From: an uncultured Mollicutes bacterium
GTDB lineage: Bacteria; Bacillota_I; Bacilli_A; Acholeplasmatales; Anaeroplasmataceae
Length of the DNA stretch: 43,109 bases
NCBI GenBank assembly: GCA_947174785.1
Contig: CAMWKG010000014.1
Span: forward strand, 1 to 43,109
Direction: 5' to 3'
Each line of letters starts with the position of its first letter. Position 1 is the stretch's first letter. The notes beneath the pieces are model-generated. The model was given only the letters and a program-made list of their open reading frames with translations, was not told the DNA's origin and made no database searches. Positions 29,177-30,574 of the stretch are shown here, piece after piece. The translations under genes were made by a program, and so were the position numbers.

Positions 29177-29809
29177 TCATATTCTTTCATATAAAACTCT
29201 TAGTCTTTTATGAATCATTGCAGTAAATAAAACAACTATACTAGAGAGCATTAAATTAAACGGAATGACAGCTAAAAAGATATAGCATACCATAAAGGTA
29301 TCTTTGGTTGCTTCTACCTTACCAAAGGAAATCAATTTAAAAGCAGCATTGGACATTCCGATAAGAGGTGTCATATCTCCCTTAAAGAATAAATGAGTAT
29401 ACCAAGGAATATTTATAAATATATTTGCAAGTATTGCCATAACAACCCAGGAAATAACGACCATTGCAAAAGCCAAAACTGTTTTATTTTTAAAATGAGA
29501 TTTTTGATAAATCAATCCTGCAGGAATAACTACTGCAAGACCATTTAATATATCAGCTATTTCTCCTACATAGCCAGTACCTGTTCCTGGAGGTAAGATC
29601 CATTTTAAAAGACAACGTAAAACTACACAGATACAAGCATCCCATGGTCCTAGCATAAATGCACATATTAAGATAGGAATCATTGAAAAATTGATATCTA
29701 AAAAGGATGGAAAAATAGGAAGTGGAAATTTCACATAACAATATAAAATAATAGATATAGCTGCAAAAATTGCCACAAACGAAATACGTTTTATTGCATT
29801 TTTCTTCAT
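29177..29809 (-). CDS. ribU: Riboflavin ECF transporter S component RibU
   Basis: The 210-residue integral membrane protein has about six helices and the ECF S-component layout. The N-terminus (KRISFVAIFAAISIIL) and the FPLPIFPSFLDINFS loop are typical of RibU, the riboflavin-binding subunit that works with a shared EcfA-A'-T module, not seen in this window. The decisive evidence is an FMN riboswitch in its leader. The ATG follows AAAGGAAAG. It appears monocistronic. Confidence 0.92.
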   Translation of the reverse strand: MKKNAIKRISFVAIFAAISIILYCYVKFPLPIFPSFLDINFSMIPILICAFMLGPWDACICVVLRCLLKWILPPGTGTGYVGEIADILNGLAVVIPAGLIYQKSHFKNKTVLAFAMVVISWVVMAILANIFINIPWYTHLFFKGDMTPLIGMSNAAFKLISFGKVEATKDTFMVCYIFLAVIPFNLMLSSIVVLFTAMIHKRLRVLYERI

Positions 29810-29860: not shown

Positions 29861-29881
29861 CTTAAAAACAAAAATTATTTT

Positions 29882-29992
29882 TAACTTCTCTCATCCAGAC
29901 TCTACTGTCGGTATAGGAATTTCACCTATTCATGCACTTATGTGCTCGCGGACTTTACCGCCGGTATGGAATTACACCAAACCCCGAAGTTG
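29882..29992 (-). promoter_or_regulatory. FMN riboswitch (RFN element) controlling ribU
   Basis: On the minus strand the conserved RFN pieces appear in order: CTTCGGGG, GGTGTAATTCC, ACCGGCGGTAAAGTCCGCGA, ATAGGTGAAATTCCTATACC, GACAGTAGAGTCTGGATG and AGAGAAG closing the first stem with AACTTC. FMN binding should favour the downstream terminator and shut off riboflavin uptake. Confidence 0.95.
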
Positions 29993-30043
29993 ATATTTAC
30001 TTGGTTGCAGGATAGTAATATTCCTTATCTTGCAAGTGCTCTA

Positions 30044-30072: not shown

Positions 30073-30164
30073 TTCCTTATAGTTTCTATTATTTTTTCTT
30101 ATCAGAATCCTAGAATCATACTCTTGTTTAGAAAAAAAACAATATTTTATCAATACGATTTTTC

Positions 30165-30193
30165 TTGGTCATAGGAAATCCTTAACTTATAAT
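30165..30193 (+). promoter_or_regulatory. Promoter of the structured RNA candidate
   Basis: TTGGTC (30165-30170), a 17-base spacer and a perfect TATAAT (30188-30193). RNA would start near 30200. Confidence 0.65.
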
Positions 30194-30199
30194 AAACTT

Positions 30200-30540
30200 G
30201 AAAGGTAATAAAATGCTTTGTAGGCTAGAGAAGTCTACCCTTAGTCTGAAGGAATGTTTTCCATGACACAAGCTTGTGGGTTCATTTTTCAACTTCAGCA
30301 CCCAATCTAAATAACTCGTTGGGAGGTGTAGCTATGGTCAATTTCTTGAAATATATACTTTCTAAGATATTCAAAAAAAATAACTGTAAGTTTTCTCTTA
30401 CAGTTACGAAATTTGTAATAAAAAAGACAGTTTATATAAAAGAAAAAGATTCTACTTCTTCGCCTCACAAGCAGGAGTAGAATCTATGAACCATGGAAAA
30501 CATGGGGTTAGATTTTACTCTAGCCTTGCGTTTCTATTTA
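30200..30540 (+). ncRNA. Unidentified structured RNA candidate with paired 5' and 3' ends
   Basis: The two ends are complementary over four blocks: GGCTAGAG (30223) with CTCTAGCC (30518), TCTACCC (30234) with GGGTTAGA (30505), ATGTTTTCCATG (30254) with CATGGAAAACAT (30492), and GTTCAT (30280) with ATGAAC (30486). That makes about 33 pairs enclosing the middle. Inside are perfect hairpins AACTGTAAG/CTTACAGTT (30382-30405) and GATTCTACT/AGTAGAATC (30448-30484). The final stem GGTTAGA/TCTAGCC followed by TTGCGTTTCTATTTAT could terminate. I find no RNase P, tmRNA, SRP, 6S, T-box or common riboswitch signature. A small inverted-repeat mobile element or a folded toxin-type mRNA are alternatives. 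Confidence 0.55.
30334..30480 (+). CDS. Possible small peptide (48 aa) inside the structured RNA
   Basis: An ATG with a very strong ribosome site (GGGAGGTG, 5-6 bases upstream) opens a 48-residue frame. It starts with the basic amphipathic stretch MVNFLKYILSKIFKK and ends in TAG. The TTGGG next to the ribosome site can pair with CCCAA at 30301, partly hiding it. Two perfect hairpins lie within the frame, which suggests selection on RNA structure, so coding is uncertain. No family recognised. A 17-codon frame also starts at 30213. Confidence 0.35.
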   Translation: MVNFLKYILSKIFKKNNCKFSLTVTKFVIKKTVYIKEKDSTSSPHKQE

Positions 30541-30574
30541 TATTATATGCGAAATTTTTTGAAATTTCAATCCT

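Follow-up and report, generated by a model that had tools for sequence, protein, structure and literature searches.

The element at positions 30,165 to 30,540 is very probably a type I toxin-antitoxin locus, in which the plus strand is predicted to encode a small toxic peptide and the minus strand an antisense RNA that would control it. The best reading is a new family of such systems, with a layout like that of txpA/RatA and bsrG/SR4 and end pairing like that of hok. The window, the whole stretch of 43,109 nucleotides analysed here, is contig G000:C14 of a 1.84-Mb genome in 53 contigs. An earlier note on this DNA had offered a type I toxin-like mRNA, silenced by hok-like pairing of its ends, as one candidate. 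Of its candidates the toxin-like mRNA is the one supported: relatives carry toxin-like ORFs, and the antisense promoter, its terminator and the 5′–3′ pairing are all conserved. Hok-like hiding of the Shine-Dalgarno (SD) sequence is not seen in the window copy. The statement that the element fits no known RNA class also holds: no Rfam model matches it at the gathering threshold, and a relaxed search stayed far below that threshold.

The features of the element are collected in Table 1. The four nested blocks by which the ends were said to pair are recovered by string search, and the other parts described from the letters are likewise present: the two internal hairpins (9 and 10 bp), the TATAAT box, the 48-codon frame and a ribosome site, GGGAGG, that is in part paired. 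The RNA folds at −103.4 kcal/mol, compared with −73.6 kcal/mol (sd 5.1) for shuffled sequences (z −5.85; none of 100 shuffles as good). With TGGTCA as the −35 box and a 16-nt spacer, the sense promoter scores 10/12, and its −10 box is kept in the copies. The 5′-terminal hairpin is weaker in the window copy (GAAAGG), and the alternative local 5′ stem is compensated, as judged by eye, in L046 (CTTGAAG/CTTCAAG) and L048 (CAGAG/CTCTG). By sequence, the stem of the sense terminator competes with blocks 1 and 2. Elsewhere in the window, an FMN riboswitch (RF00050, 109 bits) lies at 29879–29995 on the minus strand, upstream of the minus-strand ORF 29177–29809, which is for this reason probably a riboflavin transporter gene.

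Table 1. Features of the element and its promoters (positions in the window).
Feature	Position	Strand	Basis or remark
Operator-like site, AACAATATTTTATC-AATAC-GATTTTTCTT	30138..30166	+	21 bp before the −10 box
Sense promoter	30165..30193	+	weak −35 (TTGGTC or TGGTCA); −10 TATAAT at 30188-30193
Predicted toxin mRNA, ~335 nt	30200..30535	+	start ~7 nt past the −10 box; end set by the terminator
5′-terminal hairpin, CAAGG...CTTTG type	30200..30221	+	seen by eye in clades
5′ arms of blocks 1 and 2	30223..30237	+	fold, duplex test, string search
Block 1, 8 pairs	30223-30230/30518-30525		string search
Block 2, 7 pairs, one G-U	30231-30237/30509-30515		string search
Alternative local 5′ stem, CTGAAG/CTTCAG	30246..30298	+	by eye
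Block 3, 12 perfect pairs	30254-30265/30492-30503		5′ arm ATGTTTTCCATG
Block 4, 6 pairs	30280-30285/30486-30491		string search
SD-sequestering hairpin	30301..30326	+	window SD unpaired 0.29
Toxin-like ORF, 48 codons, MVNFLKYILSKIFKKNN...	30334..30480	+	ORF reading, pN/pS
Hairpin within the ORF, terminator-like on the minus strand	30382..30405	-	terminator scan
Predicted antisense (antitoxin) RNA, ~95 nt	30440..30535	-	conserved promoter and terminator
Antisense terminator, hairpin 30447-30485 then TTTTTCTTTT	30440..30485	-	overlaps the 3′ end of the ORF with its stop codon
3′ arms of blocks 4, 3, 2 and 1	30486..30525	+	fold, duplex test, string search
Sense terminator, GGTTAGA/TCTAGCC and T-rich tail	30506..30535	+	terminator scan
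Antisense promoter, TTGAAA-17-TATAAT	30542..30570	-	11/12 match; convergent with the sense promoter

The minus strand, which the earlier note overlooked, carries a near-consensus promoter and T runs past both internal hairpins. All 10 examined copies of clades A1 and A2 that keep this end have an inward-facing TTGnnn-17-TATAAT on that strand (10–11/12), and a score of at least 9/12, which 25% of shuffled segments also reach, is found near the same position in 20 of 22 members. One pair of the terminator stem is C-A on the plus strand and G-U on the minus strand in L044 and L046; the same pair is a full G-C in L052 and L053. Because of the conserved inward promoter, the T run and this pair, the first covariance model was built on the antisense strand, from 10 copies in one Anaeroplasmataceae genus. 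Across 20 distinct antisense sequences, once aligned, pairing holds in 93.4% of cells and compensatory (double) changes occur at 18 of 24 pairs; in helix 4, the terminator hairpin, all 10 pairs show them. Covariation is 0.513, as opposed to 0.200 in shuffled alignments (0 of 500 reach the observed value) and at most 0.141 in slid ones. G-U wobbles fall in 51 cells in the minus sense versus 2 in the plus sense. The alignment, having been fitted to a model made on the minus strand, is biased towards the structure and its strand; L201, L203, L206–L209 and later finds lie outside the pair count. Helix 5 supplies 21 of the 51 minus-sense wobbles, U-G being the commonest type at one of its pairs, and the terminator hairpin contributes 7 in the minus sense and none in the plus sense. 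The predicted antisense RNA, 30535–30440, lies inside the final ~95 nt of the predicted mRNA. By its conserved promoter, fold and terminator, the minus strand reads as a putative gene for an antisense RNA able to pair with the toxin mRNA.

By BLAST, the genome of the window contains three copies, two of them complete and the third truncated where its contig ends, and strong copies are present in 4 of the 10 other genomes of the genus (G002, G007, G009 and G010); outside the genus, the matches listed are short and weak. The ORF appears in named database records at four loci, all in metagenome-assembled genomes (two named Anaeroplasmataceae bacterium, two uncultured Mollicutes bacterium). Clade A2 comprises two diverged copies of G010, L052 and L053, the latter with a peptide identity of 36%. 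Run over 55 genomes of the family, the first covariance model recovered the copies and added, at E 2e-7 to 0.02, loci in G000, G001, G002, G004, G006, G008 and G009 that the listed BLAST matches did not include and that have unrelated sequence in the same layout. The peptides of these clades, MNFLSIITQILVLINAVVNTVITFYRVKKVIQEKENSTLRRPSK in H1 (a tandem pair in G000), MSLIFTIVVTILNLVVSIVQW... in H2 and MEILLLILNIIFIILRIAFEMINFIKKQKKSS... in H3, each contain a membrane helix (best 19-residue hydropathy 2.1–2.7) and a basic tail. Where the 5′ side of a distant locus is intact, one can make out by eye the sense promoter, the SD, the 5′ and 3′ arms and the antisense unit, and the second L196 copy (L196:6854-6958, G009:C15) and L201 (G006:C8) keep the 3′ end and have lost the 5′ arm. 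A SAM-I/IV riboswitch (RF01725) was noted near the H3 locus of G004, at L200:1558-1672 on the minus strand.

A second covariance model, made from 21 matches and run over 160 genomes of the order, places the family in 9 of the 11 genomes of the genus (not in G003 or G005). In G000 the loci are the window, C13, C45 (partial), two at C1, C37 and C2, and many copies across these assembled genomes stand at contig ends. Within the genus, L207 has no strong 5′–3′ duplex. Outside the genus, six genomes gave matches with E values of 2e-4 to 0.05, none of them convincing on reading. L227 is the end of an ffh-like ORF, L208 and L209 are ORF ends with weak 5′–3′ duplexes, L228, L229, L230 and L232 also have weak duplexes, and L231 forms a duplex of −43.1 kcal/mol but has no ORF of 20 codons listed. 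L206 (G029:C62:29682), from a different genus within the family, is a possible genuine analogue, with a hydrophobic small ORF and a 5′–3′ duplex of −51.1 kcal/mol in unrelated sequence. No relative was found in 149 pattern stretches of viral contigs.

The 5′–3′ helix recurs in five sequence clades (15 members). Mean duplex energies are −47.0 kcal/mol for a member's own arms, −45.3 kcal/mol for arms of the same clade and −35.0 kcal/mol for arms of other clades; same-clade arms are thus nearly equal to own arms, and the own arm beats every other-clade arm in only 9 of the 15. This test was made apart from the partial copies L039, L041, L042, L043, L044, L045 and L049, from L047 (unrelated 5′ side), the 5′-truncated second L196 copy and L201, and from L204, L205, L242 and L246, which were recognised later. 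Block 2 varies in sequence across clades and retains its pairing, and block 3 has another sequence in clade A2 and is still paired. The 12 pairs of block 3 are broken in L040 and absent, by eye, from the H clades, and block 4 is mostly a peculiarity of the window, 4 of its pairs being left in L038 and L040 (by eye). By the earlier note, uncompensated variation of the blocks in homologues would have refuted its proposal; such variation was seen once, in the 12-pair block of L040, and not for the helix as a whole.

The expectation that the end pairing hides the SD, as in hok, is not clearly borne out by folding. At equilibrium, which is how accessibility was computed rather than co-transcriptionally, the SD is unpaired at 0.40 or less in 13 of the 15 full-length members, and mean accessibility is 0.27 at full length, 0.31 after trimming and 0.30 with the antisense target masked; the window copy gives 0.29, 0.27 and 0.28, respectively. 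Trimming raises accessibility by at least 0.2 in three members (L195a, L196a and L197), and L198 and L200 exceed 0.5 in all states. Since the mean and window values barely change between states, no general SD switch is indicated, and no clear hok-like switch was seen among full-length, trimmed and antisense-bound states of the 15 members at equilibrium. The 5′–3′ helix may rather protect the 5′ end of the mRNA and compete with the antisense RNA, the 5′ part of which has nearly the same sequence as the 5′ arm of the mRNA.

Type I toxins are usually hydrophobic with basic tails. The window peptide, of 48 residues, is short, basic and amphipathic and has no membrane helix by hydropathy (0.54). 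Besides the window's, six of the seven complete A1/A2 ORFs are open at 48–51 codons, the exception being L046, which is frameshifted. Pooled pN/pS over 5 copies is 0.52, a moderate degree of purifying selection, with neutral P values of 0.03, 0.04, 0.06 and 0.31 in four comparisons with the window (L046 and partial ORFs were left out, and one L047 codon was dropped for alignment). Searches of Pfam, NCBIfam and PHROGs with the peptides gave nothing above cut-off or chance; the best NCBIfam match was TrbJ (E 0.0016, 18.6 bits against a cut-off of 164). A single-sequence AlphaFold model of the peptide has two helices (pLDDT 76, pTM 0.33) and is given no weight as evidence. Retention of the ORF in the copies read other than L046 and the membrane peptides encoded by relatives make the peptide a candidate toxin.

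The 29-bp operator-like site is common to the window-type promoters, the gene of an XRE-like regulator and recQ promoters of the genus. At the regulator gene, which encodes ~400 residues and, where read, follows what we take to be dnaD- and nth-like ORFs, it also lies 21 bp before the −10 box. Searching the 11 genomes with TTTTATCMANNNNWWWTT-N25-TATAAT, at most one mismatch allowed, returned 25 matches: 10 at the regulator (all genomes but G001), 7 at a RecQ-family helicase (G000:C32, G004:C10, G005:C9, G007:C305, G008:C2, G009:C1 and G010:C53), 7 at window-type elements and 1 at G001:C51:246. The same pattern read backwards gave 2. With the 10 regulator sites as training set, a matrix gives scores of 29.5–38.8 at 8 of 8 element sites, including that of a decayed copy. 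Upstream of recQ it beats shuffled sequence (P ≤0.017) in 8 of 10 genomes, including a G003 site (score 3.0) that is without the −10 spacing. The G004 recQ site is weak (P 0.19) and correctly positioned, and the matrix found no site upstream of recQ in G006. Nine promoters of other toxin clades all score 0.4 or less. The helicase passes TIGR00614, and the helix-turn-helix of the regulator is weakly recognised (ClgR at E 1.9e-5, far below cut-off; PDB at E 0.02). A LexA DNA-binding domain exceeds the cut-off in none of the 11 genomes of the genus, 7 of which have weak sub-threshold matches; it does so in 9 of 14 control genomes. The weak −35 box of the sense promoter suggests activation rather than repression. 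The left motif, together with an empty site at G000:C12, was also considered as a recombinase att site; this reading was dropped, as the motif is missing from the empty window sites in G009, G002 and G006 and stands at a fixed distance from the regulator and recQ −10 boxes in genomes where the element is absent there.

As proposed for the toxin-antitoxin locus, the plus strand would give an mRNA of ~335 nt for the basic peptide, and the minus strand an antisense RNA of ~95 nt against the last ~95 nt of that mRNA, covering about a dozen codons, the stop codon and the 3′ UTR. During growth, the antisense RNA would bind the mRNA 3′ end and cause decay, block translation or both, by analogy to RatA and SR4. 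Pairing within the mRNA would compete with the antisense RNA for the 3′ target, because the mRNA 5′ arm resembles the 5′ part of the antisense RNA, and would probably sequester the 5′ end, leaving a stable, untranslated pool. In window-type copies, transcription would be set by the operator common to the XRE-like regulator gene and recQ. Once there is more toxin mRNA than antisense RNA, the peptide may act on the cell's own membrane, as the relatives with membrane helices suggest by analogy.

Other readings of the element were weighed against this one. That it is a structured regulatory ncRNA, with an incidental small ORF and a convergent promoter belonging to a second ncRNA gene, we regard as improbable: the constraint on the ORF is only moderate, one copy is frameshifted and the window peptide is without a membrane helix, as such a reading would have it, but nearly all complete A1/A2 ORFs have stayed open at similar length and toxin-like ORFs stand at the same place in distant members. 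It is slightly harder still to see the peptide, instead of as an intracellular toxin, as one that is secreted and serves the XRE-like regulator as a signal or bacteriocin-like peptide, in an RRNPP-like circuit. The operator common to the element and the regulator gene itself and the short, basic, amphipathic character of the peptide would suit such a circuit; other clades, however, lack the operator and code for membrane peptides, a pheromone gene would not be expected to have an antisense RNA, and searches found no TPR repeats in the regulator.

A small non-autonomous, MITE-like mobile element, another candidate of the earlier note, is less likely than a type I toxin-antitoxin locus and, in our estimate, very unlikely; what stands of the proposal is the short direct repeats flanking one site, as opposed to the few loci per genome, the decayed copies at a common site and the fact that no transposase was seen. 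Copies do occur at different sites, many at contig ends, and the window site, which is occupied in G010, is empty in G009, G002 and G006 and, by eye, holds no element in G003, G004, G005 or G008 (G007 gave no match; G001 was left out). A second site lies between what we take, from reading, to be yebC- and fba-like ORFs; both ends of a copy, on separate contigs, were found there in G009 and G007. By eye, a 10-bp direct repeat, ATCAATACGA, flanks this copy in G007, and the imperfect pair TCAATTCCTTAT/TCAATCCTTTAT flanks the window site, but the flanking sequences read by eye show no consistent target-site duplication. The inverted repeats begin at the transcript ends and not at the element ends, the left direct repeat lies within the operator and its right partner in the −35 region of the antisense promoter, the left direct repeat of G009 reads ATCCAGTCGA, and G000 has a tandem pair, all of which count against mobility. 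The fba-site copy is present in G009 and G007 and survives only as decayed remnants in two other genomes (a left end at G000:C12 ~2812, L004, and a right end at G002:C5 ~5381, L203), a pattern that suggests inheritance with loss. We read the copies as having dispersed and in part been lost, and nothing that could have moved them was found.

The type I toxin-antitoxin reading can be set beside known systems as excerpts of the cited papers describe them. In txpA/RatA and bsrG/SR4, the antisense RNA binds by its 3′ end to that of the mRNA, which brings about decay; SR4 also strengthens SD sequestration (PMC6562991, in part). Similar to these Bacillus subtilis systems, the antisense RNA here overlaps the 3′ end of the toxin mRNA and the SD lies in a short helix (PMC6562991); unlike them, the element has a long 5′–3′ helix with an antisense-like 5′ arm and an operator common to a regulator and recQ. 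Compared through family libraries only, no homology to either was found (no Rfam match at gathering, no Pfam or NCBIfam match). Long-distance 5′–3′ pairing of the mRNA, here predicted and conserved, is shared with hok/sok and aapA/IsoA. The 5′–3′ helix of aapA and hok controls the SD in the excerpted account (PMC6733600), whereas 3′ trimming here gives no clear SD release, and the antisense RNA of hok is described at the 5′ region (mok) rather than the 3′ end (PMC6562991). Like the element, Fst/par of pAD1 has convergent promoters, an SD hairpin and a helix that sequesters the 5′ end; in Fst RNA I this "upstream helix" is comparable to the 5′-end protection proposed here (PMC7472228, in part). 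In place of the direct repeats and shared bidirectional terminator of Fst/par, the element has inverted arms and separate terminators, and, by eye, its peptides lack a PXXXG motif. A toxin promoter tied to the regulator of other genes recalls the SOS type I toxins tisB, symE and dinQ with their Lex boxes (PMC6562991, in part), although the operator here goes with an XRE-like regulator. Clostridioides difficile modules of the CD2517.1-RCd8 type likewise have convergent overlapping genes and toxins of 50–53 residues, with control that involves sigma B, a likeness by description and not by sequence; the same source, in the part cited, gives a hydrophobic peptide with a basic tail as the typical type I toxin composition (PMC6563280). 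Type I systems are stated to be known in Tenericutes in the cited part of PMC12390103; for type I toxins in Mollicutes, Acholeplasma, Anaeroplasma, Tenericutes, Mycoplasma and Spiroplasma, no title among the literature matches listed concerns such a system.

A wider proposal, to which we give rather less than an even chance, is that the XRE-like regulator, itself autoregulated, would run a very small regulon of its own gene, RecQ and dispersed type I toxins in organisms without a recognisable LexA, with a DNA-stress or competence-like signal releasing membrane-active peptides and the mRNA 5′ arm serving as a built-in antitoxin copy that competes for the antitoxin target. With the family described here, relatives of the wall-less Mollicutes would gain a multicopy toxin-antitoxin family with strong covariation that went unrecognised by the protein and RNA family libraries used. 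Its diverged natural variants are available for probing the purpose of end-to-end pairing in toxin mRNAs. One operator would tie a type I toxin to a helicase, a link that, to our knowledge, is otherwise known only from the SOS system.
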